Assembly (NCBI GenBank): GCA_016647705.1
Contig: CM028333.1
Coordinates: 12,483,616-12,547,615, forward strand
Direction: 5' to 3'
Length of the DNA stretch: 64,000 nt
Origin: Eucommia ulmoides
Taxonomy: Eukaryota; Streptophyta; Magnoliopsida; Garryales; Eucommiaceae
Below are positions 1,587 to 64,000 of the stretch, piece by piece (position 1 is the stretch's first letter; each line of letters begins with the position of its first letter). A program made the translations under genes and the position numbers. Under the pieces are notes generated by a model. That model was not told the DNA's origin. It saw nothing but the letters and a program-made list of their open reading frames with translations, and did no database searches.

Positions 1587-1784
1587 TGATAGGTGTAGAA
1601 TACCTATCTAATTCTAAACCGAATTTTTTAGTTTTCCAGTATTTTATTTAAGTTTGAATATCTTTTTAGCTGTTTTTATTAGTCAGAAGTAGGGACATAA
1701 ACAATCGGCAAACTGAGTGAAATGGTGGAAAAAGCGGTAGCCAAAAGATAAAAAAAATGTGGTTTCAAAGAACAGCGCAAATCT

Positions 1785-2365
1785 GCCTAGGCGAAGTTTT
1801 CACCGCCTAGGCGAAAATCCATCAGAAAGTTACAAATGTTGAAATGTTGAAATCCGCCTAGGCGAAGTTTCCACCGCCTAGGCGGAAATCCGTCAGAACG
1901 TTAAAAGCGCTGAGAAGTTGAAATCCGCCTAGGCGAAGTTTCCACCGCCTAGGCAGAAATCCATTAGAAAGTTGCAACGGCTGAAATGTTGAAATCCACC
2001 TAGGCGAAGTTTCCACCGCCTAGGTGAAAATCCGTCAGAAGGTTGAAAGCGCTGAGAAGTTGAAATCCGCCTAGGCGAAGTTTCCACCGCCTAGGCAGAA
2101 ATCCATCAGAAAGTTGTAAGGGCTGAAATGTTAAAATCCGCCTAGGCTAAGTTTCCATCGCCTAGGCGGAAATCCGTCAGAACGCTGGAAGTGCTGAACT
2201 GCTGAAATCCGCCTAGGCAAAGTTTCTACCGCCTAGGCAAAAATCCATCAGAAAGAAAGAAGACCAAGAAGTTAGTCCTCTGCCTAGGCGAATAAACCAT
2301 CGCCTAGGCGAATTTCTAACAGACTAAAACTCCGCCTAGGCGAAGTTTCTACCGCCTAGGCACAT
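1785..2365. repeat. 71-bp tandem array of CCTAGG palindromes
   Basis: Eight units start at 1785, 1856, 1927, 1998, 2069, 2140, 2211 and 2282, each 71 bp apart, then a shorter end unit at 2334. Each unit has two copies of the self-complementary word CGCCTAGGCG, separated by about ten bases ('aagtttccac' type spacer). The pair can also fold on itself as a hairpin with an 11-bp stem (CCGCCTAGGCG against CGCCTAGGCGG). The array sits 50 to 630 bp upstream of a TATA-like box inside the LTR, where a U3 enhancer would be. The palindromes are better kept than the spacers between units. Confidence 0.9.
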
Positions 2366-2416
2366 TTCGCAGAACAGTCTAAAATATCTGTTTAGATATT
2401 TTTGAACCCCTAGGCC

Positions 2417-2424
2417 TATTTATA
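2417..2424 (+). promoter_or_regulatory. TATA-like box of solo LTR copy 1
   Basis: TATTTATA followed by CCCC, about 50 bp after the palindrome array, is the best core-promoter candidate in this LTR. A telo-box-like AAACCCTAACCC lies about 35 bp downstream, where transcription would start. Promoter activity is inferred from position only. Confidence 0.45.
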
Positions 2425-4090
2425 CCCCTTTCCCATGTCTGAAAAAGGTTGTTGATAAACCCTAACCCTAGTAGAGAGTTCTTAAGCTATATTTTGAAGA
2501 TCAAGAAGGAGATTCATCATTCGGGTAAAAAAGAATCACTTGTAGACCGATCATTAGCGACAGTGACCCGTTTCACTTTCAGATTTTATCGTTCTTCTCT
2601 TGTTTTTATCTTTGTAATTACTTTTTCATATCTAAGAATGTTGAATCCCTCTTATTTTGTATGGCATATGGCTAAAATCTTATAGTATTAGTTAAATGTT
2701 ACTTAGGTGTAGTTGAAATCATGTAATTATTTAGTTGAATGAATTAATATTACTTTAATGTGTTGTTTGTCTAAATCCGATTGTGTTTACCATTATTCTT
2801 GATATTATGCTTGTGTTGATAAACCGAGAATACAGGGTTTGACACTCGGGAGAGGTAACCCTGGATTCGGACTAGGGTAAATACAACGTAACGTTCTAAT
2901 GACCGGGAGGGCGTTAAAACGTATGCAATCTATGACGTTGGCTAAAGACTCACGCGACCTAGAGTCGCAAAGGCGTTGAAGGGGAATTCTTCGTTGACAC
3001 GAAATCATCTAATCCGCCGTCTTACACTCGGGAGAGGTAGCGAAGAAGTTATCGATACAGAGATTGTCGGAATAGATAGAAAACTATTATAGCTAACTAA
3101 ATGACGTCGATTATGTATTATGTGAAAGAAATCAATACCTAAGTAATTAGTGTAATTAGAACTAACCTAATAGTTGTCGTTTATCTTAGTATATTAAATA
3201 GAAAACAAACAAATTTTGATTAGTCAAGATAATATGAAAATATTTAAATCAAAATACTCAACCGAATTACATGTCATTCCCAGTGGAACGATATCCGATC
3301 TTACAAGATCTATTATATTAAAACTAGACCTCGTATACTTGCGAGTAGTCAATACCGCGAGGACGATGGTGTGAATCCTTGCGCGTACACTACCCTCCAA
3401 TATATCTACAAGAAGAAGTGGTATCCCGGCGTAAAGCATTAAGGGTGATAACCGGACCCCCTACATAGGTCGATAGTTCGTACCCGGAGCCAGACCAAGG
3501 TCATCCACCAAGGGTGGGGCATCGATCAGGTCTGAGGACCTATGGTTGAGCATCAAACACTTAACAGCCAAGCTGAGCTTAGGCGACATAAAGGAACGAT
3601 GCCCCTGTAAGGGCCAAATTGGGATAACCCGAAAAGGCTCAAGGATGAGCCCCACTAAGGAGAACCCACCTGTGACCAGCCATAGGGGACCAACCACAGT
3701 GTTGCACCTCTAGGGAATACAAGGGCTAGATGCCATGCGAGTACTACCCTCGGCACAACCTACCAACCGAGCTCGCCTTCCTCAACTCAGGTACTAGGCT
3801 GGGGGGGCACGAAAGTCATAAATATGGTAAGAGAACACCTATTTAGGGAGAAATGGGAGTTTAAGAACGTAAAGCTATAAAAAAATTTGGCAAAAACAAC
3901 ACCACATCCTCGAAAATGACTGAACAAAAACCTAGTCTTGTCAAGCTCTGAGACTGAGCAGAGTCTGGCCAGGAAAAAGAAAACGAGACATTAAGATGCC
4001 AAGTTGAGCACAGGAAAACCAACCAAGATCGGTTGGTTGAACTGAGCTTAGGAACCCTTCCGTAGTTGAGCGCAAATCATGCGGTGTCAA

Positions 4091-8410: not shown

Positions 8411-9638
8411 AAACTATAATTACATAAACGAGTATTCGACATAATCTTAAAGTGAAACAACTTAAATTAATCATAAATATTTGTTGGCCTAGTGAGCTAC
8501 CCAAGAGGGGGTGAATTAGGTAGTATTAAGTAATTATCAGAATATAATACTTCAAAAATTAAATAATTAATTCTATCATAAAATTAATTATTATCTTTTA
8601 TAGCAGCGGATATGTGTTATCTACTAGGTTCACACCCAAATAACAAAATATAAACAATATAAATAGTACAGCATACAAAAATTTATACTGGTTCATCAAG
8701 CTACTCTTGGTTAATCCAGTCCCCCGAGCTCCGCAGAGAGTCGTACCCACTAAACTCAAGATTCTTTTAAAGGTAGGAACCAAACCCTCACAAAGATTCT
8801 TTTCGCAGGCTCATAATCAACATTTATAATTCTTTTTCACAAGCTAAGGAATAACCTCTATATTTTTATCAGGTGGAAGATTAACCTAATTTTATTACAG
8901 GGAGAATCACGACCTAATTCTTTTTATACCTTAGGCTCAAGAATTAAACCTCACACAAACACGCTCCAAATATCATTTTACCTGGAAATGATTAAACTGT
9001 TACAATTCACTTACAAATTCAATCAATGAAGAATTAACACCTAATCGGTAGTAGCAATATTCCACAATAAATATTTCTCGAGAACAAATCTCAAGAAAGA
9101 TTTCACAATGCACTCAGCATGATTACTCTTAGAAAGCACGAAAACTGAATAACTCAGAATGATTTGGATTATCTTGATCTTATATCCATTAACATGAGAA
9201 ATTCGTAGGTCTGTTTAAAGCCACTTGAAACAAGCTCTATAACGGCTAGTTCTTATAAATCATGACATTTAATTACACCAATAGACCCTCTATATCATAA
9301 TGATTCATTCCTGATATAATTCACTTAAAATATCTCTTAAAATATTCAATTAAGTCTCTCAAACTTTTACTCAAATTCAATTAGATAAGATTGAAACAAT
9401 TTCATGTACCAAATTAAGAAATATCAAAACTACTTAAACCATATCTATAGCGATATTTAAATATTAATTAAATAGCTCAAAACCATTCTGATCCCTAAGA
9501 TATCTCGCATATCTTAACCATAAAACGGCTAGTAACTGCTATTTTTTGAATAAAATCCAAAATTTCATAAATCCTGAAACAGCTCTATTTGTCGACCGAC
9601 TAAAGCCCATCTGTCGACTGCCGAATTCAGGATTTAGC

Positions 9639-10940
9639 TGATAGGTATAATTTATCTATTTATTTCCTAGCTGGTTTTGATAGTTTTCGAGTACTTTTAT
9701 AGCATTTTATTATATTTTAATACGTTTTTATTTATTTTGTTATAAATTAGCTATTTGGGGTGAAAAGGGACTAAAATGGTCCATAAACGAGCAAGTTGGT
9801 AGAAAAACGGTGAAGAAAAATAATAAAAAATCCAAATTTTGAACCTACATCCTCCGCTACAGCGGTGAAAATATAGAGAGTTGCTGAATGCTCCACCGCT
9901 GCAGCGGTCACCCGCCAGAATCCTACCGACCTATCCACCGCTGTAGCGGTCAACACCAAATTTTTTAGGATATTTTGAGATATTTTGAATATTATAAATA
10001 TCATCCCACTTTTCCCCAAACAAAGGTTGAACTTTTCGGGAGTCTTAAGAGCTCCAAGGCCATTTGACCAATAGAAGATCACAACGCAAAGAAAGAAGAA
10101 TTGTTCTCGAAGCGATTTTAGCGACGGATCTTCGGATAATGGCTAGTCTCCTTGTTTCTCTCTTTCTCTCTTAGATTTGGTTGAATGTTTATATATGTTC
10201 AACTCGTTTCTAGTTGTATATAGGGCTACATCCATGTGTGGCTAAACATATATTGTCGAGGGACGATGTACTTCACAAAAACTCTGTTAATATAAAATCG
10301 ATGTTTTGTTAATGGTTGTTTATGTTTATCTAATTGTGTTTGCCGTTATTCCACGTTTATATGTTTGTTATGATATACTGAGAATACGGGGTTTGACACT
10401 CGGGAGAGGTAACCCCGGATTCGAACTAGGATTTAAACAGAGCAATGATCTAATAACCTGGGAGGAAGTTAGAAAGTGTGCAATCCGTGACGTTGGGACA
10501 AGACTCATGTGGCCAAGTGTCATATAGACGCTCGATAGGGACTTCGGCGTTGATGCAAAATCATATATTTATTCATTTTACACTCAGGAGAGATAGTGAA
10601 TGAGATTTCGATACCGAGATTGTCGGATAGGATGAACGCCGTTAATGTAAACTAGATTGAAACGAACACGTTTAAATGAATGAAGTTAATCCCTAGGAAA
10701 TAATTTCCCATAAACGTCGTACCACTATATTAGTATAATTAGTTTAATTAACTTAGTTTAGTATATTTTAATATAAAACTGCATTTTATCGCCTAAATAA
10801 AATTAGGTTATGATAATCGCAGTACTCAACGACCGTCTACACCAATCTCTGTGGATACGACAACCCTTACTCTTCCCAATCTATACTAAATTTGACCCGT
10901 ACACTTGCGGTGAAAGTAGCGACGTATTCATGCTCTACTA
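9639..10940 (+). mobile_element. Solo LTR, TGATAGG family, copy 2
   Basis: About 1302 bp starting TGATAGG, with the family block 'gaatacggggtttgacact' near 10382 and 'cgtacacttgcg' near the end, as in copy 1 (1587-3390). Copy C of the host LTR shows the uninterrupted site near 19275. Flanks TTAGC and GTAGC agree at four of five bases. It is shorter than copy 1 because it has three spaced palindromes (9854-9950) in place of the 71-bp array. TATA-like TATAAATA at 9993-10000. It landed within the GTCGAC-palindrome region of the host LTR. Confidence 0.75.
9854..9950. repeat. Three CCGCTNNAGCGG palindromes
   Basis: Self-complementary words at 9854-9865 (CCGCTACAGCGG), 9895-9908 (ACCGCTGCAGCGGT, perfect) and 9937-9950 (ACCGCTGTAGCGGT), spaced about 42 bp apart. 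They occupy the same relative place in the LTR as the CCTAGG array does in copy 1, ahead of the TATA-like box at 9993-10000, although the sequences are unrelated. Confidence 0.85.
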
Positions 10941-10954
10941 GTAGCTAAGCCAAA

Positions 10955-11215
10955 AATCCTTCGCCAATCGGTCGACCGCCCATATTTCATCTGTCAACCA
11001 GACGATTCAGGATGTTTCATAGGTCGACTCACCTGTCGACCAGAAGATTCAAAAACTTCTTCTTTTAGCCATAGATCGACCTACCTGTCGACCGACCAAT
11101 TCAAAAAGTTCACCATTTAAGTACAGGTCGACTTACCTGTCGACCGAATGATCCAAAGAGTTTACCTTATAACCACAGGTCGACTTACCTGTCAACCGAC
11201 CACTTCTAGAACATC
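10955..11215. repeat. GTCGAC palindrome array of LTR copy A
   Basis: Repeated 'aggtcgac-ttacct-gtcgaccg' modules, spaced about 55 bp, separated by 'attcaaaaagttcacc' type spacers. Each module contains two GTCGAC words and an ACAGGT/ACCTGT inverted repeat, so it can form a hairpin. Part of the same array lies on the left of the solo LTR (9588-9622). Confidence 0.8.
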
Positions 11216-11964
11216 TCTCTCAATCCGATTTTTATTAAATTTCTTCGACGTTTTCGCCCCCTTTAACCGATTTCTTTTCTCGGTTAGCTCCACTAAATCT
11301 TAAATTTAATTTTAATCAATTATCTTTTGTATTTTTCAATTACACATAGGAGCAAATAATTTAACTAATTAGGATCCTATAAAAACCCACATAATTTTGA
11401 AAAATATTTTGTGTCGTGTGTGATAATAACTGGGATACATTTAGAGTTAGAATTTAACCTGAGTTGTTTTTCTTAGATTCTTTAATTTCTTCAAACTCTT
11501 TATCTTCCATCATCTTTGTTATTATCTTTAGCATTGTCACAATATCTTCATAATCATTTTCATCACTAGAACTAATAAACTGAAACACTCAATAAAACCA
11601 CTAGTTCCACCAAAAATATCAACATTTAATTGTCCATCAAAATCTTAGGATCAACAATCTCCCTCTTTTTGATGATGACAATTAACTTTGATGTTTTCTT
11701 CAAAACAAAAATTTAACCACACTCCCCCTAAATCTGAAGACGGGTTATTTAACTCGTTAAAGCAAAATAATGAAGATAATCATAAGATTTTCAACAAAGA
11801 ACAAATTTTAATATATAATAAACTCCCCCTTAAGATATTCAACAAGATAATTCAAGCTCTCCCTTCAAACATTCATTAAAACATCAACTAATTCTCCCCC
11901 TTTTGTCATCTCAAAAAAAATTGGGGAGGGGAACCACAAAGAAACACTATCATGTAGTAATTAT

Positions 11965-12232: not shown

Positions 12233-14350
12233 TATTGATCCTAAGATTTTGATGAACAATTAAGTATTGATGTTTTTATGGAACTAATGTTTAATTGAGT
12301 ATTTCAGAGATTTAAAGTTCCAGTTATGAAGATGTCAAATTGCATGGATTCTAAATGACGTCAAATTGAATGGATACTAAATGAAGATATCAAGATGATG
12401 AAGAAGTATTAAGAATTTGAAGAACTTAGAAAAAGCAACCCAGGTGAATCTTAACTCTTAATATCTCATTTAGGAACACACACATGGCATAAAATGTATT
12501 TTATCATTTATGTGTGTTTTGGTTAGGTGAAATTATTTGCTCCAATGTGAATTGAAAAGAAATAATTTTGAACGACTAAAATAAAATATAAGAATATTAG
12601 TAGAGATTATTTAAGAGAGAAAATGGATAAAGGGGCGAAATCGTTAAAGAAAATGGGTTAAAAACAAATTTAGAGAAGAGATCTAGTGACAGCAGTCGAC
12701 TGGTAAGTCAACCGAACGTAGAAGCTGAAAGGTCTTGTATCTCTTAGTCGACCGACAGGTCGACCGGCCATTTGGGCTTAACTCTCTGAATCGAGTAGTC
12801 AACTGACAGGTCAACCGGTGAAAGCAAGATGAACTCTCTGAATTGAATAGTCGATCGAGCGGTGGACCAATGAACTCCATTAACTACAACCTGAAATGGA
12901 CAGTCGACTGAATGCGTAATTTCAGGATACTGTTTGATCCGAGTTTAAATTCAAAAGTAGCCATTTTTTATTAGGATTTGAGAGAGATTTCGGGGATATT
13001 CTCTATATTTAAGATATGGTTCATATTCTAATTAAATTCTTTTAATATGATTCATTAAATATTAATGTTTCTCAATTTGGTACTTGAAATAGATTCTATA
13101 CTTATTTATTTAGATTGAGAAATACTTTGGGGGTTTAATTGAGAGTTTTGAAATATGTTTTTAAGTGGAATTGAATCTAAATGAAGTCCTTATGATATAA
13201 GGGATCTATAAGAGTCTTTAATTGTCATGACACTTGTAAACTAGTCATTAGAAGGCTGATTACATGTTCCTTTAAATAGACCTACGAATTTCATTAGCAA
13301 TGTTAATCATTCTAAGAGAAAAAATCATTCATTGAGAGAGATTTTATAAGAGTTATCATTTTACGATATTGTGAGTCTTTTTAAGAGTAATTCTAAGCAT
13401 CAATTGCGATTAATTTTTGTTGATACCGGATTTGAAGGTACATTATTGTAATCATTATTTCTGTGGATTCCGGGTGAGATCTTTCCATATTGCTTATTAT
13501 TTGTTTATTATTCTATATTTAGAAATTGTTTATGATTTTCTAAGAAAATATTTTTTCCAAACAATTTCTTGAATATGATTACGTGCTCCAATTTGCTACC
13601 CATATTCTTGTTGAAATCAGATTTTTGTATCTCGTGTATTTTTATCACTAGTTGGAATATTAATTGAGTTATTGTTTATCTGGGGTGGTCGAAGTTCCGA
13701 GTGAGTTTTACTTCTTGTAAATTTATGTATTGGTGAGTTGTGACGGATTAAATACTGTTGGGGGTATTTAATCAGGGGTAGCTAGGTTTCAGTCTCTTCC
13801 TGTAAAGAGATTGAGGTAGTGATTCTTTATAAATAAGAATTGTAGTGTGAGTATTTTTGTAAAGGTTCCATCCTTACTTGTGAAAAGGATAGTTAGAGTA
13901 TTTTTGTAAGGTTTTGATTCTTGAGCCTTAGTGTTAAAAAGAATTATGTTATTCTTTAGCTTGTAAAAAGTAAAGGTTCCTCCTTAGCTTGAGAAAAATA
14001 AATTGTAAAGGTTGATTCTGAGCCTGTAAAAGAATCGATCTGCGGGTTTGGTTTCTACCTTTAAAGGGATTTTGATTTTAGTGGGTGCGACCTCCGTGGA
14101 GCTCAGGAGACTGGATTAGCCAAGAGTAGCTTGGTGAACCAGTATAAATCTTTTGTGTGTTGCATTATTATTTTGCTATTTTTGTTATTTGGGTGTACAC
14201 TTAGATTGATCATATTATTCCGCTGTGTTATAAAGATAATAATTAATTTAGACTTAAAATTAATTATTTAACTTATCGAGTTTTATTCTGATTATTTTTT
14301 AATTACCCAATTCATCCCCCCCCCCTCTTGGGTATTCTACTGAGCCAACA
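12233..14350 (+). mobile_element. LTR copy B (copia, plus orientation), probably solo
   Basis: A 2118-bp LTR that starts tattgatcctaagattttga and ends 'gtattctactgagccaaca', the reverse of copies A and C. It carries the GTCGAC array (about 12690-12900) and a TATA-like TTTAAATA at 13271-13278. No interior of its own follows, so it is probably a solo LTR. No clear target duplication was found, so rearrangement is an alternative. A C-rich run (14318-14330) and 'cttgggta' mark its end. Confidence 0.7.
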
Positions 14351-15720: not shown

Positions 15721-16150
15721 ACTGGAAACAAATCAACCAAGAAAACTTAAGAAATTTAGCCTAAACAGAGAACCAATCGAAACCCTAGAGAATAGAGAGA
15801 GAACTAACCTTTTTGTGAAGCAAGGAGTCACCAAATCTCAAATCCAAGCCCTATACCTTTAGATTCGTCCCAAAGATCTTCAAATCTAAGCCAAATCGAA
15901 CTGATTTCGTGAAGTTTATGATTGAACGGACTTGGGAGAGGAAGAGTTTTAGAGAGAAAAAGGTTTTAGATTTGGATGAAATGAAATGAACGAGCACAGG
16001 GTATTTAAATCCCGTAATGATTGGTCGACAGCTTACTTATAGTCGGTCGACAGATGAATGCAACGCTTCTTTCTCTTTTCCAGCTTGCTTCTGTCGGTCG
16101 ACTAATTATCCACTATCAGTCGACTGACCATTCTGAACTGTTTGACTTTT
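15720..16150 (-). promoter_or_regulatory. Promoter-like leader with GTCGAC palindromes
   Basis: Read on the minus strand: four GTCGAC words within 16020-16130, then a TATA-like 'tttaaatacc' (16002-16011), then a CT-rich leader with a plausible short intron (donor 'aaaggttag' near 15812, acceptor 'ttccag' near 15722) ahead of the first ATG of the ORF. The order palindromes, TATA box, leader is the same as in the LTRs. Confidence 0.4.
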
Positions 16151-16359: not shown

Positions 16360-17545
16360 AGATCATCCTTGGGAGCAATTGGTGTGTATACCTTTGGTGG
16401 ATTACTAATTTCTGACTTGGTATCCTTTGATTCCACCAATACTTGATTTGTCCCCTTATTTTCTTCCTTCTTAGTAGTGGTAATTTTCTGAATTGATTCG
16501 TCAAGAATTTCTTTACCTTTGTTTGGTGCTTCAGGTTACTTTTTCTCATTCTGCTTTCGCACAACTTTGTAAATAAACTTTTTCTTGTACTGGTATCTTG
16601 CCGTTTGTTGTGGATAAGCTTTGTCAGCTCTCACATATTGAGTTTGTTGCTTCTGTAGTCTTCTATTTGGCACGTGCTAATTCTTCTTATTAGGTACATT
16701 GAACCTCGGTTCCCTCGTCGGCATGGAATATTCATTATACCTTTGTGTCTGTTCAAATCTCCTTGTTGGCACATAATATTCATTGTATTTTTATCTAAAT
16801 CTCCTATTGGTATCTGCACCAAAATTTTCTCTTTTCAGTATCCAGTTGTTTCTAGATCTGACAGGATAACCATGTAATAAATAATAAGATTTTTCATAAT
16901 GACCAAATTTACCACAATAAAAACACTTAATACTGTTAACACGCCTCTTCGGATAGTTAGTGTTTCGTACGAGAGCATAAAATTGTTTGTGATTTTGAGA
17001 AGCAGCTTTAGTAACTATTGGTTTTTCAACAGGTTTTGCACTCTCAACATCCTTGAATTTATCCATTACTTCTTTAAGTTCCTTTTGAGTCTTTTCAAGT
17101 AACCGCTTATTGGTGCTAATATTTACCTGTAGATCATAATTCTTTTTATGCATAAATTCAAGATCATTCTTAAAAATTTGACACTTATTTTCAACATAAT
17201 GGATTTTCACACGAGCTCTATCAAGCTCACACCTTTTATTATCCAATTCAATGCTCAAAGCCTCATTCAAGGTTTCAAGATTTTTCCTTCTAAATTCATT
17301 TTGTTGAAGACCATAAAAATCCTTTTTCAAAACCTCAGTCTCATCCTCAAGAGACTCAATTTTCTCACACAACTTACTAATTTCAGATAAAGTATTTTTA
17401 AACTCAACGGTTTCAAAATATTTGTCCAAATTCTTTTTCTTAAGAGTTTGACAGTACTAAATTTTTTATTTTCAAGAGTTGTAATTTTTTTATCTAGTTT
17501 AAAATTCTCTTTTCCAAAAACGTACGTAAGAGCAATAAGCATCTA
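16360..17545 (-). pseudogene. gag fossil of SIRE-like copia element
   Basis: The best open part (16791-17429) has a long charged, heptad-like coiled coil ('LCEKIESLEDETEVLKKD', 'TNKRLLEKTQKELKEVMD') and then a zinc-knuckle-like 'CFYCGKFGHYEK'. Long coiled-coil gag proteins with one knuckle are typical of the SIRE/Maximus branch. It lies directly downstream of the primer-binding site, where gag is expected. Broken, with a few breaks. Confidence 0.7.
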
Positions 17546-17724: not shown

Positions 17725-19981
17725 TGTTGGCCTAGTGAGCTACCCAAGAAGGGGGTGAATTGGGTATTATTAAGTAATTATCAGAATATTTTATAGCAGC
17801 GGATATGTGTTATCAATTAGGTGCACACCAAAACCATAAAAATATAAACAATATAAATAATGCAGCACACAAAAATTTATACTGATTCACCAAGTTACTC
17901 TTGACTAATCCAGTCTCCTGAGCTCCGCAGAGAGTCGCACCCACTAAACTGAAGATTCCTTTAAAGGTAAGAACCAAACCCTCACAAAGATTCTTTTCGC
18001 AAGCTCATAATCAACATTTACAATTCTTTTTCACAAGCTAAGGAATAACTTCTATCTTTTTACCAGGCGGAAGGTTAACTTAATTCTATTACACGGAGAA
18101 TCACGACCTAATTCTTTTTATACCGTAGTCTCAAGAATTAAATCTCACACAAACACGCTCCAAATATTCTTTTACCCGGTAAGGATTGAACTGTTACAAT
18201 TCACTCACAAATTCAATTAAAGAAGAATTAACACCTAATCTTTTTATACTCTAGGCAAAGATCAAAATCTCAATCTCTTTACCGGAAGAGATTGAAACCA
18301 GCTACTCTTGATTAGACACTCCCAGTAGTATCTAATCCGACACTCAACTCACCAATTAAAAATAATTAATAAGTGATTTTTTCACTCGGAGCTTCTACCA
18401 CCCCAGATAAATTCAAATTCAATTAATGTCCTGATACTAGTAATAGAAAAGTGAGAATTTCAAAATCTAATAAATAAAGATGGATATCAAGCAATTAAGC
18501 ACGTAATCAGATTTTTTTAAGAAATTATTTCAAAAATAATTTTCAATAAAAAATTCAAAAAATAATTTCAAAGATCAAACTCCAATAATAAATAATAGAA
18601 TTAATCAACAATTAATAGTAAGTAATTTGGAATGATCTCACCAGGATTTCACCGAAATAATAATGATTAGAATAGTAATGACACTTAAGATCAGTAGTAG
18701 CAATAATCCACAGTAAATATTTCTCAAGAACAAATCTCAAGAAAGATCTCACAATGCACTCAATATGATTACTCTTAGAAAGCACAAGAGCTGAATAACT
18801 CAGAATGATTTAGGTTATCTTGATCTTATGTCCATTAACATGTGAAATTCGCAGGTCTATTTAAAGGCAATTGAAACAAGCCATATAACAACTAGTTTCT
18901 ATAAATCATGACATTTAATTACACCAATAGACCCTCTATATCATAATGATTCATTCTTGGTATAATTCACTTAAAATATCTCTTAAAATATTCAATTAAG
19001 TCCCTCAAACTTTTACTTAAACTCAATTAGATAAAATTGAAACAATTTCATATACTAAATTGAGAAATATCAAAACTACTTGAACCATATCTGTAGAGAT
19101 ATTTAATATTAATTAAATAGCTCAAAACATATCTGATCCCTAAGATATCTCGCATATCTTAACTATAAAACGGCTAATAATGGCTACGTTTTGAATAAAA
19201 TCTGAAATTTCATAAATCCTGAAATAGCTCCATCTATCGACCGACTAAGGCCCATCTATCAACCGCCCAATTCAGGATGTAGTCAATCCAAAAATCATTC
19301 ACCCATCGGTCGACCACCCATATTTCATCTATCAACCGGACGATTCAGGATCTTTCATAGGTCAACTCACCTGTCGACCGAATGATTCAGAAACTTTCTC
19401 TTTTAGCCATAGGTCGACTGACGGATTCAGAGAGTTCACCATATAAGCACAGGTCAACTTACCTGTCGACCGAATGATCCAGAGAGTTCAACTTATAGCT
19501 ACAGGTTAACTTACCTGTCGACCGACCACTTCTAGAACACCTCTCTGAATCCGATTTTCATTCAATTTTTTGACGTTTTCGCTCCTTTAACTGATTTCTT
19601 TTATTGGTTAGCTCCACTAAATCTTAAACTCAATTTTAATCAATTATCTTTATTTCTTTTTCAATTACATATAGGAGCAAATAATTTAACTAATTAGAAT
19701 CCTATAAAAACACAAATAATTTGGAAAAACATTTTGTGTCATGTGTGATCCTAACCGGGATACATTAAGAGTTAGAATTTAACCTGAGTTATTTTTCCTA
19801 TGTTCTTCAATTTCTTCAAACTCTTAATTTTCCATCATCTTTGTCATCATCTTTAATATTGTCATAATATCTTCATGATCATTTCCATCACTGGAATTAA
19901 TAAACTGAAACATTCAATAAAATTGTTAGTTCCACCAAAAATATCAACATTTAATTGTCCATCAAAATCTTAAAATGAACA
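17725..19981 (-). repeat. 5' LTR (copy C) of the copia element
   Basis: A 2257-bp LTR, plus direction TGTTGGCC...ATGAACA, the most complete of the three copies. TATA-like box at 18858-18865 (reverse strand tttaaata) and the GTCGAC array at 19228-19535 upstream of it. Confidence 0.8.
19228..19535. repeat. GTCGAC palindrome array of LTR copy C
   Basis: About six modules of the form 'aggtcgacttacctgtcgac' plus 'cgaatgattcagagagtt', spaced near 55 bp. It lies about 360-670 bp upstream of the TATA-like box in element orientation. Some CpG sites have decayed to TpG/CpA (gtcaac), as expected for methylated repeats. Confidence 0.8.
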
Positions 19982-20724
19982 ATATAATATTTAAATTAAA
20001 CGTGATAAAAAATACAAGTAATCATAAAAAGAGAAAAAAAAAAACATTGCATAAATTAGAAAATACTACCCATCATTGAAATTTTCTAGTATCAATAACT
20101 ACTTCGTTTTATCAAATTGTTCGTAGTGAAAAACTCTATCTTCGTAATCGGACAGTTCTGAGTCATCCGTATATCTGGAATCGATAAAGAATCTGGATTT
20201 CATACCGTATACCTATCTCATCTTGCTACTAAGCATAGTCCCTTATCCCTAAACTCTCACCAGTGCAATGGATCTTCATTGGTTCCTTGCCTTTGTCCTT
20301 ACCCTTATTGTTTCCTGACTCGCTTACCATTTAAACTGATTTTTTGAGTAACAACAATGGAGAAAAGAAATTAATGTAGTGTGAATGATAATTCTGCAAG
20401 TATAAATGTATATATAGGCAAATTTTTGTACCAAAATAATATTTCGTCAGTCACTTTCCCGCCAACAACTTTCCAATTACAAAGATAAATAAATGAATCT
20501 CTCCAATTTCTTCACCAATTTTTCGCCAACTATTTCTCTCCAATTTTATGTATTTTTTCCCCTTCATTTTCTTCTCCATTTCCCTCCAATTTCCTGCCCA
20601 TTTCCCCCCCTAAATTTTCTATAAATAGTAGAAGTCTCAGTTCTCAATTTAATTACCTGAGGTACTCTATTTTGTTTCTGAAGAGAATGAATAAAATATA
20701 TAAAGAAAACTACGGTGAATGTTT

Positions 20725-21818: not shown

Positions 21819-22753
21819 TATTTTGTCATATACGATAAACCGGTTGGATATATATATATTACTTTACCCTGGATTGGTGCATCCCTATATATATTGGTGT
21901 ATTTATTATTCTAGTTGATTTCACTGCTTGGATGGAAGGTTATAAATATATGAGTGTATTTTTGTGATGACTGGAAAATCGAGTTTCCGTGTGATATGTG
22001 ATTTTTATATTATTTTGGTTGACTAGTGGGATATTTTATCAGGTGATGAGATATTGAACTGGTGGGTCTAAAATACTTGGACAGGTCGACTTAAAATATT
22101 TTGAACTTACTGTTTTAAAATATCTGGATTAATTAATCTAAAATAATTGGGTTGATTGAATTATAATGTTTGGATTGGATATTTTCAATGTATATATCTA
22201 TTGGTTTATTTCATTAGGAACAGGGAAACTGAATTTCCGTACGGTGTTTTATTTTATTTATATTGGGTATTTTAAATACATTATTTCTTTACATTGTGGA
22301 CAGAAGGAAAATTGGTTCCGAATGTGATGTGCGATGTATGGTATTATCGTTATATTATTTCTTTTCATTGGCGGGAGTGGAACCAAATATGTGATTATAT
22401 TATTTTATATTTCGAAGTATGGTGTTTATTATTTATACGTGATCCATGAAATGTTATTTTTTTTATTATGAAGATAGTACACCGATAAAAGTTTTGGGGT
22501 GCAGATACCGCGGCTAGGAGTGATCCACTATTGGCACTAAGGAGAGTCCGGAGGTAGTGGTGTGTTGGAGGTGAGTCGGTCGGATATGAACCGTGGAAAG
22601 TTCAGGTATATATATATTCTATAAGGAAAATTTACAAGTAGACGAGTGTGTTTGTATATGTGTTTGTTTGGATGTGTGTGTGGGTTGGTTCGGTAATGTC
22701 AGGTTAACATCACGCCTGGCCTCAGGTGACGAGCGCCCGGGTGGAGTGTGACA
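21819..22753 (+). repeat. Truncated 5' LTR of Tekay element
   Basis: Aligns with the last 935 bp or so of the 3' LTR (28175-29112); both share 'ttttgtcatatacgat', 'ggatggaaggttataaat' and the 'gtgtgtgggtt' stretch near the end. It ends GTGTGACA, directly before the primer-binding site. The first two thirds of the LTR are missing. Confidence 0.8.
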
Positions 22754-22757
22754 TTTG

Positions 22758-22769
22758 TGGTATCAGAGC
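22758..22769 (+). promoter_or_regulatory. Primer-binding site (initiator tRNA-Met type)
   Basis: TGGTATCAGAGC, the exact plant retrotransposon consensus complementary to the 3' end of initiator tRNA-Met, four bases after the LTR end. Confidence 0.9.
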
Positions 22770-27114: not shown

Positions 27115-29112
27115 TGTATGTGTGTGTCGTTGTCGATTTCAGGTGGGTGAGAATGATCAGCCGTCGTCCGATCTGTGTGTGTGATTTATGACGATTACGT
27201 GTGTATTTCGTTCGTTGTGTATGTGTGTTGCTGCTGTCAATTTTGTGAACATATGTGTGTCGTCGTCAATTGACCGGTGAGGGTGTGGGGTATTGTTTTG
27301 CCGGCAGTGAGTGGGTGATCGGTGTAGAGTTGGTCGACAATAAGGAACCCAACAAAAAGAACAAGAAACAGAAAAAGAAAGAAGAAGAGAAGAAGAAGAA
27401 AAGAAAAAAAAAATATTACATAAACAACCCCAATAAAAATCCAAAATCTATCTCACGGCCCATTAACGATTCGGAACAAGTAATATTTTCATCGGATATT
27501 ATTATCGATTAAATTAAATTGTTAAGCATTAAGATTTTTTGCATTCGTAATAATAATTGTTGTTGTGATCGTAATAATATTTTTATAATCATTAATCTAA
27601 ATAAACCGGTACAGTGAATATTAACGGAGCGAAATTAACTGAATAATAATTTATTTTCATAATAAAATGTGGGGACAGGAAAATCGTGAAATTTAGGGTC
27701 TGCATTGCATGATTAAGCCATGTTGAATAAAATATTAATTTAGGCCCTATCACTTTTAGGTTCGCAGGCACAGGCATACCGATAGAGTGTGGTCAGTAGA
27801 AATTTTGCAGAACGGATATCGAGGTGAGTGTACTATCTTCTACGTAAATTACAAATTATATTTTTGTATATATTATGGAAAATTGTGTTTATTTAAAATG
27901 GACAAATTTGTAACTTATATGGATCAAGCTGTTTTGGGTGTTTGGGAAAAATGATTTGTTGAATCTACTTGATTTCTAAAAAGGGTAAAAAATGATTGTA
28001 GACCGAGTCGTTTGTTGTTGAGGTGGAAATTGAAGTCCTGCAGAGCGTTAATTATCTGCTACGGCAGAGCATTGTTTTGACTCGCTAGGAAGGCAAATCC
28101 TACGGGTAGTACGGTACCGTTTCAACTTCCGATCATGAGATTAAAACGATCATATGGCTAGTCGGAGGGTGGTGTAGTGTTTTGTCATATACGATGAACT
28201 AATTGGGTATATATATATATATATATATTACTTTACTCCGGATTGGTGCATCCCTATATATATTGGTGTATTTATTATTCTCATTGATTTTCACTGCTTG
28301 GATGGAAGGTTATAAATAGATGAGTTTATTTATGTGATGACTGGAAAATCGAGCTTCCGTGTAGTATGTGATTTTTATATTATTTTGGTTGACTGGTGGG
28401 ATATTTTATCAGGTGATAAAATATTGGACTGGTAGGTCTAAAATACTTGGACAGGTCGACATAAAATATTTTGAATTGGTTGTTTTAAAATATCTGGATT
28501 AGTTAATCTAAAATAATCGGGTTGATTGAATTATAATGTTTGAATTGTATATTTTCAATGTATATATATATTGGTTTATTTCATTGGGGATAGGGAAACT
28601 GGATTTTCGTACGACGTTTTATTTTATTTATATTGAGTGTTTTAAATACATTATTTATTTACATTGTGGACAGAAGGGAAATTGGTTCCGAATGTGGTGT
28701 GTGATATGTGGTATTATCGTTATATTATTTCTTTTCATTGGTGGCAGTGGAACCGGGTATGTGATTATACTATTTTATATTTCGAAGTATGGTGTTTATT
28801 ATTTATACGTGATCCATGAAATATTTTATTATTATTATAAAGACAGTACACAGATAAAAGTTTTGGGGTGCAGGTACCGCGGCTAGGAGTGGTCCATTAC
28901 TAGCACTAGGAAGAGTCCGAAGGTAGTATCGTGTTGGAGGTGAGTCGGTCGAACGCGAACTGTGGAAGGTTCAGGTATATATATATTCTATAAGGAAAAT
29001 TTACAAGTAGGCGAGTGTGTTTGTTTGGATGTGTGTGTGGGTTAGTCCGGTAACGTCAGGTTGACGTCACGTCCGGCCTCGGGTAACGAGTACCCGGGGT
29101 GGGGTGTGACCA

Positions 29113-30188
29113 TTGGAACATTGCATTGCATGTATCCATCCACCATAACTTATGTTTGGTTCACATGATAAGTTTATTCATCCCGCATCTTTACAACTCA
29201 CCGTGGAGAGTAACGAACTCTTGAATCTAAAGAATATGAGAATTCGTCTTCCAAAAGCAAGTGACGTCTCATTAAACGATACAGATCTTTTACCATGTAC
29301 ATTTGTTTTTGTTGAAACAAGATATTAAAATTTTAAACTTCAATTTAAGGTGTGTTTAGAGTGATTGCAATGGATTTAAATGATAACCAATGATATGAAT
29401 GATCCAATCCATCGTAGTAACGTTGATTTGTCATTTAGTACTGACAACATTGATAAAGGTTGAACTGATTTGTTAAATCAACTCTGCTAATGGTTGTACC
29501 GATAACAAAGGCTGATATAGGCTGAAAAATGCTAGAAAAGGCTGAAAATGTTGAAAAAGGCTAGAGAATGCTGGAAAATGCTGATAAAGGCTAGAAAAGA
29601 CTAACAAAGACTAAAGAAGGTTGACGACACATGAGCCGAAACGTCAATCAACACTGAAAAAAGGTTGTAAAGGTATTTCTGAAATCTTGGTCAACGATGT
29701 CAGTCCATACTGAAAAAGCTTGACACGAAATGTCAATTAACACTGGAAAAGCTTATTCTAAAATGCTAATTAACCATCACAAAAGGTTGAGACTTGTCAA
29801 TCATTCACCATACATGCTACTATAAAAGCTAAGTTTTGTATATTCACCATACATGATACTATAAAAGATAAGTTTTGTATAGAAACTTTGAAATTCTATA
29901 ATTTTCGTGATATGTCTTCAAATATTAATTCTAATGGGGAAAACTCATATAGTATTTCAGGTAAGAAAAACTCATATGGTATTTAAGGTTCGCCTGGACC
30001 TTGGGATCACTATTGATGATTGGTTCTACAATCATATTATGATGACTACTAAAGCGATCAAGACATCAATCCAATAGAGTATCGTGTCGGTCTACACCAA
30101 GAGTAGAAATACAGGGTGATTAAGTCTAACAACCTTGTATCTTCTTTGAGAGCTCTTAATGCACCAGTTCCACATCTAGATCTTCGTC
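29113..30188. other. Spacer with short degenerate repeats
   Basis: 29500-29640 is a degenerate short tandem repeat around 'ggctgaaaaatgct'. 29800-29880 has a direct repeat of 'attcaccatacatg...actataaaag...aagttttgtata'. No gene was recognised. It may be the decayed interior of the Mutator-like remnant to the right. Confidence 0.5.
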
Positions 30189-40252: not shown

Positions 40253-41045
40253 AAATGAAGGTATTTTTGGACACCTCTGAACCAGCACTTGGAACCCAGT
40301 CACGTGTCCGTCTTTGTAGTGATAGGGACGCATTCCGGAATCCACAACGTCACGCTGGAGCATACGCCGACTACGGCTCCTCCTTGGAATCTCATTTGTA
40401 CTCGGGGAGGAGCGAGGAGCCCCGCAGAGACGTACTGCTCTAAACTCTGCATCGTGCCCTGGACAATCAATTTCAGGGACTCAACCGTTCACTTCGACAA
40501 GCTCCCCATTCCAACTTATTTCTTCTTCAGGATTCCACGAATCTCCGTTCTCCTCCACCAGCTTACCATCACAGGTCTGGCAAAGGCCCGTGGGCTTCGC
40601 CAAATGGGCCCAAAAGCCCAAGCTCAGCGGTTATCTCCTAAATGTCCCGGATTATCGACTAAACACAGGGCTTCGACTAATTAACCGTGTTTAGGCCCAA
40701 CTAATCATCTCCAACTCCTATATATATCGGGGGCTATGCAAGCCTGAGGGACGCTTTACAATACGTGCGAGTTCATTTGTTTACTTGCTGCATTATTATG
40801 TCTTTTCTCTCTGAGAACTGATTACCACGCCGAAAAGAGGCTTCACTGGGACAAATCTCAGTCTGAGCCTTCTACAGGTACACTCTCTAAGGAGCAAGAC
40901 TCTTAAATATAGCAAGTTAGTCCTCCCAATACCTAGCACAGCTCATGTGAAGGATTTTCAACCGACGACTCCACCTCAGCAAGAGGACTCACTTGTCATC
41001 CGACTGAACTATATTCGAGGTGTGTACCAGTTTTTTACACCAACA
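40253..41045 (+). repeat. 5' LTR of Tat-like copy 2
   Basis: About 790 bp ending TTTACACCAACA. The exact first base is uncertain by about three bases (aaatgaagg here, taatgaggg in the right LTR). TATA-like 'ctatatatatcgg' at about 40718-40730. Confidence 0.8.
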
Positions 41046-41068
41046 GTTTGCCACCGTCTGGGGAACCA
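41046..41068 (+). promoter_or_regulatory. Primer-binding site region of Tat-like copy 2
   Basis: GTTTGCCACCGTCTGGGGAA directly after the LTR is a diverged form of the TTTGGCGCCGTCTGTGGGA block that follows the 5' LTR in many plant Ty3/gypsy elements. Confidence 0.65.
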
Positions 41069-49885: not shown

Positions 49886-50250
49886 ATGTGTCGCCCTGAA
49901 AATCGAAGAAATTCGGGGTCGCCCTGCCATGTTACCTGACCCCGGACCCTGGCCGTATGAAAGCTTATTTCAAATTAGCTCCTCTAAAAAATTCTAACCA
50001 TGGGAAAAGTGAAGCCCTAAAATCGAAGAAATTCGGGGTCACCCTGCCGTGCTACCTAACCTCAGACCCCGACCATATGGGGGCCTATTTCAAATTTGCT
50101 CCCCAGAAAAAGTCAACTTTTATAAAATTATCGTTCTGAAAATCTAAAAAATTCGGTGTCGCCATGCCGTGCTGCCTAACCCCGAACCCCGACCATATGG
50201 AGGCCAATTTCGAATTAGCTCCTCAGGGAAAATCTAACTCTTGGAAAAAA
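49886..50250. repeat. 120-bp tandem repeat, three units
   Basis: Landmark 'aaaatcgaagaaattcgg' recurs at 49899, 50019 and 50139, exactly 120 bp apart, with 'ccctgccgtgctacctaacc' and 'ccgaccatatggaggcc' following in each. Lies about 100 bp before the 3' LTR. Confidence 0.9.
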
Positions 50251-50363: not shown

Positions 50364-51152
50364 TAATGAGGGTAATTTGGGCACCTCTGAGTCAGCACTT
50401 GGGACTCAGTCACGTGTCTGTCCTCGTAGTGACAAAGATGCATTCCAGAATTCACAACGCCACGCTGGAGCATACGCCGACTACGACTCCTCCTTGGAAT
50501 CTCATTTGCACTCAAGGAGGAGCGAGGAGTCCCACAGGGACGTGCTGCTCTAAGCTCTGCGTCGTGCCCTGGACGATCAATTTCAGGAACTCAACCGTTC
50601 ACCTCGACCAGCTCCCTCTTCCAGTTTGTTTCTTCTCCAGGATTCCACGGATCTCCGCTCTCCTCCTCCAGCTTACCATCATAGGCCTGGTAAAGGCCCG
50701 TGGGCTTCGCCAAATGAGCCCAAAAGCCCAAGTCTAGCGGTTATCTCCTCAACACACCGGATTGTCAGCTAAACACAAGGTTTCGACTAATTAACCGTGT
50801 TTAGATCCGACTAATCATCTTCAACTTCTATATATATCTGGGGTTGTGCACGCCCAAGAGACGTTTTACAGTACACGCAAGTTCATTTGTTTACTTGCTG
50901 CAATATTGTGTCTTTTCTCTCTAAGCACTGATTACCACGCCAGAGGTGTTTCACTAGGACAAATCTTGGTCTGAGCCTTTTGCAGGTACACTCCCTGAGG
51001 AGCAGAACTCTAGATATAGCAGGCTAGTCCTCCCAGGACCCAGCACAGCTCACGTGAAATATTTTTAACCGACGACTCTAGATCAGCAAAAGGACCTACC
51101 TGTCATCTAACTGGATCATACTCGAGGTGTATACCAATTTTATACACCAACA
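50364..51152 (+). repeat. 3' LTR of Tat-like copy 2
   Basis: About 789 bp, preceded by the purine tract 'gctaggagggcaac' and ending TTATACACCAACA. Aligns along its whole length with 40253-41045. Confidence 0.85.
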
Positions 51153-52160
51153 GAAGATAGTCAGACCCTTTCTTCCCGGTTTTAGGCCTTTATATTTTTT
51201 GTTTTTTATGATATCAAAAATCTGATGTGATTCTATGTATAACACAAACAAATAAGATAGAGTTTTCAACACAGCTCATGGTCAATTTGACCCAATCCTG
51301 AGGAATATTAAAGAAAACTCGAGTATCTTTTAGGAAGCCGTAATTAATTTATGGCGACTACTTTGTTGTTTCCTTAGTCTTCTTTAGCAAATCTCTGTAC
51401 GAGCAGAAGTCTACCATGTGATACACTCTTCCACAGCTATAGCAATAGATCATGGAGACTCTCATACTCCGCATTATAGATTTGACCTCTAATTTTGTAT
51501 CAAGGAATGAAGGGCCTATCTAGGTCGATCCCCACTCATATCCTAGCTAACTTTCCTTTGATTGAAAGCCGCAATATTTCTGTCCATTTTTAGAGATCTA
51601 TCTAGGGATTTTCCTATACTAAATAAGACCGGTGGATCATAATAATCACTGACAAATCAGGCAAGCATATCCACGCTGTCATTTAAGACTCTTCGGCTTC
51701 AGTCAGGTGGAACTTCGTCTCTCATTTACGAACAGTTAAATAATATGATATAAGATTACCAAAGGTCCTTTGGTAAGAACCTTGTGTGCATCCAATTGGC
51801 GGTCAAATTTTAGAAGTCGTGGTTGAGATCAATTAGTTCAAAATCATTGTGTATCTTCCATAACATCCTAGCTCTAGGATATAGAGTTATACATTCAATA
51901 GGTATTCCTATTAATATAATTATTAGGTTCCCGCCACCTCTCTAATTTAGTCTAAAATTTGTTGTGGAATAACAAGGGAAACATGGTTGACTTGGGTATC
52001 AAGGTTTCTAGAACAAATTCCTCCTCACCATTACTTATGTTATGCCCCCTTCTTCGTGAAGCAAAACCTTCGCAGTTTCCAATTACTGGTCTCTTCGGAA
52101 CCAATCAGTACTTCCTCAAACGATTTAACTATCAACAATTTTTTTAAAAGTTCCTCCATA
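51153..52160 (-). mobile_element. L1 LINE, 5' part: ORF1 and RT start, internally deleted
   Basis: Minus strand. About 51520-51800 reads as the plant L1 ORF1 nucleic-acid-binding domain (DUF4283-like; 'WICLPDLSVIYYDP' and 'GPW' preceding it), then a CCHC knuckle 'CYSCGRVYHMVDFC' (about 51395-51440). Only about 100 bp further on comes reverse transcriptase ('IPQDWVKLTMSCVENS', about 51255-51310), so the endonuclease and first part of RT are deleted, more than 2 kb relative to a full L1. It continues at 40252 beyond the Tat-like insertion. The 5' end is unclear. Confidence 0.7.
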
Positions 52161-63500: not shown

Positions 63501-64000
63501 TGTTGATTCTAAGATTTTAATGGATAATTAAATGTTGATATTTTTTGTGGAACTAATAATTTTATTGAGTATTTCAGTTTATTAGTTCTAATGAAAAAAT
63601 TATCATGAAGATATTGAGAAAAAATGTTAAATGAATGCTAAAGACATTGACAAAGATGATGCATGTTAAGAGATCAAAGAATTTGAAAGTTAAATTTTTA
63701 CTCTTAATGTCTCCCGATTAGGATCACACATGACACAAAATATTTTTACAATTATGTGTGTTTTTTATAAGATCCTAATTAACTAACATATTTGCTCCTA
63801 TGTGTAATTGAAGAAGAAACAATTGATTTAAGAAACATAATTAATTAAAATTGAATTTAAGAATTTAGTAGAGTTAACTGAGAAAAGAAATCGGTTAAAG
63901 AAGCAAAAATATTGAAGAAATTTAGTAGAAAAATAATTAAGGAGAAGTGTTCCAGTTCAATCGGTCAACCTACACAAATTGATCGGTCAACCGATGGAAT
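63501..64000 (+). repeat. Start of another SIRE-like copia LTR (runs off window)
   Basis: TGTTGATTCTAAGATTTTAATGG followed by 'gttgatattttttgtggaac' and 'attgagtatttcag' matches the start of copy B (12233) and the reverse of copies A and C. The last bases already show the palindrome array ('atcggtcaac...gatcggtcaaccgat', 63969-63996). It has landed next to a MITE, with no polypurine tract before it, so it is a 5' or solo LTR. Confidence 0.75.

Follow-up and report, generated by a model that had tools for sequence, protein, structure and literature searches.

Palindromic word arrays in LTRs of Eucommia ulmoides as putative dyad-symmetric sites of a dimeric host factor

The LTRs of the TGATAGG retrotransposon family of Eucommia ulmoides carry in their U3 region arrays of palindromic words that are real and far above chance. 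We consider it reasonably probable (about two chances in three), judging by sequence, that these words are dyad-symmetric sites of a homodimeric host transcription factor, the array serving as a homotypic enhancer upstream of the TATA box. This reading draws on the anatomy and enrichment of the words, the base preference of their half-sites, their spacing, their pattern of decay and the repeated change of their centre, as read in the DNA, and from these we infer protein binding, dimerisation, enhancer activity, factor identity and the methylation that enters the model. The window, that is, the whole stretch of 64,000 nucleotides analysed, lies on contig C9, and the genome survey was conducted on its own assembly (G000, 947 Mb).

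Anatomy and enrichment of the words

The window contains two copies of the family (Table 1), both of which are single LTRs with identical short strings on either side; moreover, the copia LTR interrupted by copy 2 matches an uninterrupted relative at 18690-19983. The two copies align at the LTR start and in a shared downstream part, and poorly in between. The 18 CCTAGG-type words of copy 1 form nine pairs, and the first eight pair starts lie exactly 71 bp apart; the eight exact 71-bp units proposed earlier are exact in spacing only, since the units match at 84%. The three words of copy 2 were found where they had been placed, and so were TATA-like strings at 2417, 9993, 13271, 18858 (reverse) and 16002 (reverse). 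The supposition that the words of the two copies are unrelated palindromes is ruled out, since both have CCGC..GCGG arms 4 bp apart, their common form being a 14-bp site, ACCGC-NNNN-GCGGT, with CTAG, TGCA or CGCG at its centre. Immediately upstream of copy 1, several tandem repeats with a 78-bp period (69-73% matches) occupy 1007-1578.

Table 1. Features of the window (positions counted from its first nucleotide)
Feature	Position	Strand	Remarks
TGATAGG-family LTR copy 1 (solo LTR, TG...CA)	1587..3389	+	CTACC at 1582-1586 and 3390-3394; genome-wide relatives
Copy 1 U3 array, 18 CTAG-centred words	1779..2365	+	spacing 20/51 repeated, then 32/20
AACAGACTAA, copy 1	2318..2327	+	position-equivalent (by eye) of relatives' ACCGAC core 5' of last word
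TATA-like TATTTATA, copy 1	2417..2424	+	
Downstream LTR part common to copies 1 and 2	2755..3075	+	75%; copy 2 counterpart 10309-10630
Two GTCGAC words, copia LTR B	9591..9618	-	22 bp apart
TGATAGG-family LTR copy 2 (solo LTR)	9639..10941	+	within copia LTR; TAGC on both sides
Three TGCA-type words CCGCTNNAGCGG, copy 2	9854..9949	+	at 9854, 9896, 9938 (42 bp apart)
ACCGAC core 5' of last word, copy 2	9925..9930	+	
TATA-like TATAAAT, copy 2	9993..9999	+	
GTCGAC words, copia LTR B	10971..11196	-	spacing 22/30 then 12/40
Three AGGGGGAG polypurine strings	11722..11901	-	just outside copia LTR B: 11722, 11823, 11894
GTCGAC words, copia LTR C	12695..12908	+	spacing 12/40, last 53
Four GTCGAC words	16024..16124	-	spacing 22/51/22; upstream of TATA-like string
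GTCGAC words, copia LTR A	19236..19522	-	partly decayed
Two decayed words GTCAAC, further copia LTR	63964..63991	+	22 bp apart

Within the window, the array of copy 1 is strongly enriched, with 8 GC-rich palindromes that reach 10 bp where shuffled sequence gives 0.29. Copy 2 alone shows no enrichment in 6-bp palindromes (1 against 1.23), since only one of its three words is perfect. The family at large gives a clearer picture. Its core, TTTGACACTCGGGAGAGGTAAC, occurs 6731 times genome-wide and its reversed pattern never, and the first 90 of 100 places listed among these occurrences (L029-L118, all on contig C1) were taken as a sample unselected for U3 content, with TGATAGG located exactly in 63 LTRs and with one mismatch in 24, and the last 1000 bp used for the other 3. 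The U3 regions of these 90 LTRs contain 143 palindromes that are 10 bp or longer and have a GC content of 50% or more, compared with 8.6 in shuffles, and 38 of at least 14 bp, compared with 0.5; the 430 bp downstream of U3 contain 5 of at least 10 bp, compared with 3.25. Of the 90 LTRs, 61 possess such GC-rich palindromes (10 bp or longer), and 72 carry three to six words, which for the most part are scattered and do not form tandem units. The outcomes that would have spoken against the initial annotation, most members lacking arrays or shuffled sequences yielding as many palindromes, were not observed in this sample. Up to seven words were counted in 88 of the 90 LTRs, with a threshold that undercounts arrays with changed arms, and at least eight CCTAGG sites were found in the stretch examined of 19 of 20 relatives of copy 1 (L009-L028, fetched among the 40 nearest scored, copy 1 included), counts that mostly include one or two sites beyond the array; the exception, L021, has two.

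Among the 90 LTRs, the arms CCGC and GCGG stand 4 bp apart 70 times and 1 bp apart 30 times, the latter probably being overlaps within CGCG-type words; the remaining distances between 0 and 12 bp are absent. When centres are left free and at least 7 of the 8 arm letters are required, palindromes make up 157 of 298 centres, with 115 CTAG, 27 TGCA, 11 CGCG, 2 CATG and one each of TTAA and TATA. These features bear on the notion that the words arose as satellites, by slippage from a founder whose palindromic form was accidental. The 71-bp tandem of copy 1 and the varying word number of its relatives would fit such neutral amplification, and array growth by tandem duplication forms part of our own model; nonetheless, the prevalence of three to six dispersed words, the existence of several palindromic centre types and the similar layout in copia elements make a purely neutral origin highly improbable.

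A second motif, CCGAC, turns up in the 35 bp preceding the last word of 37 among 86 LTRs, compared with 45 of 1720 random 35-mers; we take this CCGAC/ACCGAC core to be DRE-like. The family presumably resembles the Athila lineage. An internal stretch between two LTRs of the CTAG clade (L119, between L077 and L078) encodes RVT_1 and, downstream of it, Integrase_H2C2 and rve, and this order of reverse transcriptase before integrase makes the element a Ty3/gypsy retrotransposon, an assignment that covers this one element of the CTAG clade.

Half-sites, helical spacing and the putative factor

Next to the dyad, 303 of 674 half-sites have A, 288 have C, 74 have T and 9 have G, so that A or C accounts for 591. 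This preference indicates that specific bases are conserved, and not self-complementarity alone. Read outward from the dyad, the putative half-site would be [A/C][G/A]GCGGT, two of which would face each other with no gap. Adjacent words are, in turn, regularly spaced: their distances cluster at 19-21, 32, 41-43, 50-52, 62-63 and 70-71 bp, with other values less frequent (45 bp accounts for 8 of 325). Scanning periods from 6 to 20 bp, we obtained a best fit at 10.3 bp for 316 spacings (R 0.61), a period noticed in this first sample rather than planned beforehand, and the same best period emerged from 32 spacings in eight LTRs on contig C2 (R 0.83), picked from flank-anchored places of one subfamily. 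Because spacings and centres are inherited, such counts exaggerate how independent the data are; when the set is reduced to its 14 distinct modal spacings, the fit is equalled by 9 of 5000 random sets. The CTAG relatives L009-L028 score slightly higher at 6.3 bp than at 10.0 bp, with 0.70 at 10.5 bp, and the copia words of the window fit best at 9.8 bp, with 0.61 at 10.5 bp.

A period of about 10.3 bp corresponds to the helical repeat and speaks for sites at which dimeric proteins bind along a single face of the DNA, rather than for a hairpin in RNA, the dyads lying mostly some 2, 3, 4, 5, 6 or 7 helical turns apart, such that bound dimers would share that face. Of the two functions that the initial annotation had suggested, a dimeric transcription factor site or a hairpin, the former is therefore the better supported. 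The latter holds that the palindromes fold U3, which the genomic RNA carries near its 3' terminus, acting in packaging or as a small-RNA trigger, as has been proposed for maize Sireviruses, whose palindrome clusters have mapped small RNAs (PMC10760457, PMC5311732). Folding was predicted for 110-nt pieces and gave -48.3 kcal/mol (z -6.1) for the array of copy 1, -39.0 (z -4.9) for that of copy 2 and -34.8 for copia LTR B, the last with a z of -2.9; the z values of two controls are -1.2 and -0.3, but a second piece of copy 1 (z -1.6) and one of copia LTR C (z 0.07) do not follow suit. A hairpin, moreover, needs a loop, so a palindromic centre flanked by A or C at the dyad would bring it no advantage, and it leaves the 10.3-bp period unexplained. 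We thus regard hairpins as a decidedly unlikely explanation of the words, although the folding of dense arrays makes a second role in small-RNA production possible.

Under the dimeric-site model, a single family of dimeric factors would bind several of ACCGCCTAGGCGGT, ACCGCCGCGGCGGT, ACCGCTGCAGCGGT, the CGAG hybrid and GGTCGACC in a centre-dependent manner. ERF/DREB, LBD, trihelix and ARF proteins are the classes that we assume to be eligible and have weighed, settling on none. A defined motif whose core is found 6731 times in one genome offers a concrete handle for finding the host factor, and the switched sites described below form a natural series for testing how retrotransposons change their factor dependence.

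Decay and switching of the dyad centre

The initial annotation envisaged that unrelated palindromes are regenerated or swapped in U3, arguing that different palindromes at a homologous position are hard to explain by descent. Mechanistically, modules would be regenerated or exchanged through gene conversion, the repair of hairpins or template switches during reverse transcription, and no protein site would be under selection. A search for the last word anchored on its flanks, with all 14 letters left free, returned 868 places (5 for the reversed control), 100 of which were read: 72 are nearer to ACCGCCGCGGCGGT, a set that takes in a few TGCA-like words, and 28 to ACCGCCTAGGCGGT. All except one, which is counted among the 72 and resembles no word, are near one of these two related palindromes, and regeneration or swapping of unrelated palindromes accordingly finds no support. 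Deviations are mostly C-to-T decay; transitions number 160 among the 72 words of the first set and 23 among the 28 of the second. Seventeen words have any transversion, which is single in 14 of them, a point that also speaks against hairpins, and a symmetric pair of transversions is seen in L057 only. With nearly all words near two palindromes and deviating mostly by such decay, the palindromes appear not to be rebuilt after insertion; they would be left unmaintained and decay mainly by transitions, as deamination of methylated C predicts. L057 and L056, which lie 4.1 kb apart on the same strand of contig C1 and are 91% alike, differ at 5 of the 14 positions of the last word, three of the differences being transversions, with at least 25 bp identical on either side.

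Complementarity within the last word points the same way. From the outermost pair inwards, 97, 79, 66, 71, 73, 79 and 76 of the 100 words have complementary bases, compared with shuffled means of 97, 77.9, 61.8, 65.7, 73.2, 73.6 and 43.3, so that a large excess is confined to the centre pair. Compensatory repair after insertion is thus unsupported. The covariation score of the last word (2803 against a shuffle maximum of 1871), which could be taken in favour of regeneration, is driven by this centre pair. A corresponding search for the first word returned 297 places (control 0), and the 50 tallied of the 100 listed have GC in 30 cases, GT in 9, AC in 6, AT in 4, GA in 1 and TA in none at the centre, with transversions in 10. 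With ACC and GGT fixed, a third search, again at the last place, found 198 places, among whose 100 listed centres GC (40) and TA (27) prevail over AC (17), GT (11), AT (2) and others (3). Taken together, the flank-anchored searches suggest that palindromes belong to replicating lineages and decay later in the manner expected of methylated C.

The centre has nonetheless changed, and more than once. Across the genome, the pattern ACCGCCNNGGCGGT has 7866 occurrences, its reversed form 4, and the first 50 have TA (17), GC (14), GA/TC (9), AC/GT (7), AT (2) or AA (1) at the centre, CG being absent. A GA/TC centre, as in CGAG, is a step between GC and TA, so that a change of centre can, as far as sequence tells, pass through such asymmetric forms, and their existence weakens the contention that the differences are hard to explain by descent. 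In our model, the dyad centres of subfamilies (TA, GC, TGCA) would differ because half-sites change singly through an asymmetric form and parts of LTRs may recombine. One observation counts against a plain half-site model, which does not predict the excess of palindromic centres unless descent explains it: 33 of the 50 are palindromic where half-sites varying independently would give 20.1 (binomial p 2e-4, with no correction for descent), and the centre pair is complementary in the 76 of 100 last words given above, compared with 43 in shuffles.

On a tree built from the 430 bp downstream of U3 in 86 LTRs, after dropping four long-branch rows, the 34 TA-only and 38 GC-type-only LTRs (72 unambiguous ones) require at least five changes of centre, and a single TA clade is rejected (p-AU 1.1e-7). 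Repeated change of the centre within the family is therefore established at the level of sequence, and the difference between copies 1 and 2 does not reduce to one event. Two LTRs in which all or most words are TA-centred, L114 and L106, have masked U3 flanks nearest to GC-centred LTRs, and the flank of the all-TA L097 is nearest to the unclassed L072 and then to the GC-type L101 and L029, while those of other, mixed LTRs (e.g. L053, L066) are nearest to TA-bearing LTRs. Recombination between LTRs can produce such mismatches of flank and centre, as can mutation. The several origins of TA centres and the foreign flanks could equally be cited in support of regeneration, together with the agreement among words of the same LTR, since mixed centres are found in 7 of 29 LTRs against 14.5 with shuffled labels (from 33 LTRs hand-picked from the tree) and in 7 of 79 against 62.8 when all are taken, a contrast inflated by tandem arrays. 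This agreement is incomplete, however: TA is found in 0 of 50 first words and 28 of 100 last words, and two of the eight LTRs from contig C2 are mixed, with TA in the last word and other centres elsewhere, so that a fully concerted change of words within an LTR is partly supported at most. As the 100 last words lack any sign of repair after insertion, and helical spacing is not something that regeneration predicts, we deem it very unlikely as an account of the arrays.

The copia words and known systems

The second set of words noted initially, the GTCGAC arrays of the copia LTRs, is likewise real, with 30 GTCGAC in the window against 5.6 in shuffles and spacings mainly of 12, 22, 40 and 52 bp; the array proposed at 63960-64000 proved to contain GTCAAC twice and no GTCGAC. 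Enrichment of 6-bp palindromes is strong in LTRs B and C and at 16010-16130, where 0 of 500 shuffles match the observed count (7 against 1.18 in 10971..11196 of LTR B), and weaker in LTR A, matched by 7 of 500. The word of the copia family is fixed: a flank-anchored search found 196 hexamers genome-wide, and among the 100 listed 43 are exact, 94 differ by transitions at most and 6 have a transversion.

Palindromic repeated motifs are known from the LTRs of Sireviruses (Bousios et al. 2010, PMC2829016), where each element has 8-32 boxes, nearly all with a CGG-CCG signature and among them CGGTCGACCG (Vitis) and AGCGGTASTACCGCT. The boxes cluster upstream of the TATA box, in the LTR's upper half, the word differing per element in an unchanging layout. 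They were described as Sirevirus-specific among Ty1/copia elements and with no known reader, the authors having found no common binding factor. The GTCGAC elements of the window look like this kind: their words conform to the signature in many copies upstream of the LTR TATA box, the Vitis motif equals the word at 10969-10978, and LTR B is adjoined by clustered polypurine strings, of which the whole window has 5 against 1.68 by chance. The Sirevirus primer binding site, TATCAGAGC, occurs at 22761, 34873 and 60121 of the window, and at none of the ends of LTRs A-C. Between LTRs A and C, an open frame of 221 aa on the minus strand (16791-17456) with a zinc-knuckle-like CFYCGKFGHYEKSYY appears gag-like by eye; the GTCGAC words at 16024-16124 come after it in element direction, as Sirevirus boxes before env would. 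Copy 2 splits the word array of the Sirevirus-like LTR in which it sits.

Hence, palindrome arrays in copia are already known in kind. In maize, too, the cis-regions of Sirevirus LTRs have fast-evolving palindrome clusters that are small-RNA hotspots (Bousios et al. 2016, as related in PMC10760457 and PMC5311732); such clustering in the LTR's regulatory part is shared with the family studied here, but the maize elements are copia. The TGATAGG element tested is Ty3/gypsy, whereas the data set of PMC2829016 is Ty1/copia; TGATAGG words read CCG..CGG (ACCGC....GCGGT) rather than CGG..CCG, and three to six of them are present in 72 of the 90 LTRs sampled. The portions of PMC2829016 consulted describe neither helical spacing nor switching of centres within a family. 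U3 also varies between subfamilies of the Tnt1 superfamily, the rest being kept, in a process of modular evolution that resembles the change of U3 seen here (PMC1838419); the strings 'palindrom' and 'tandem' are absent from the main text of that paper. Openly available literature on palindromic or tandem motifs in Athila and gypsy elements, at the level of titles and the beginnings of abstracts (including PMC2829016, PMC11302176 and PMC8282616), yielded no description of palindromic words in a Ty3/gypsy LTR. As far as these searches show, the occurrence of this layout in a Ty3/gypsy family is new, and so are the rule for the half-sites, their helical phasing and the repeated switching of centres.

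A broader reading would be that Sireviruses and the TGATAGG Ty3/gypsy family converged on dyads of CGGT-type half-sites on one helix face, driven by one conserved class of dimeric plant factors, with the centre dinucleotide acting as a specificity switch flipped repeatedly to follow members of that class. The order of half-sites differs, CGGT..ACCG in Sireviruses and ACCG..CGGT in the TGATAGG family, and we hold such convergence to be a speculative and rather unlikely scenario.

Further repeats were observed in the window. Two pairs of direct repeats of about 0.8-0.9 kb, at 21848-22755 and 28217-29114 (89% identity) and at 40254-41046 and 50365-51153 (85%), are perhaps LTR pairs, and a tandem repeat with a 120-bp period and 2.9 copies spans 49893-50238.
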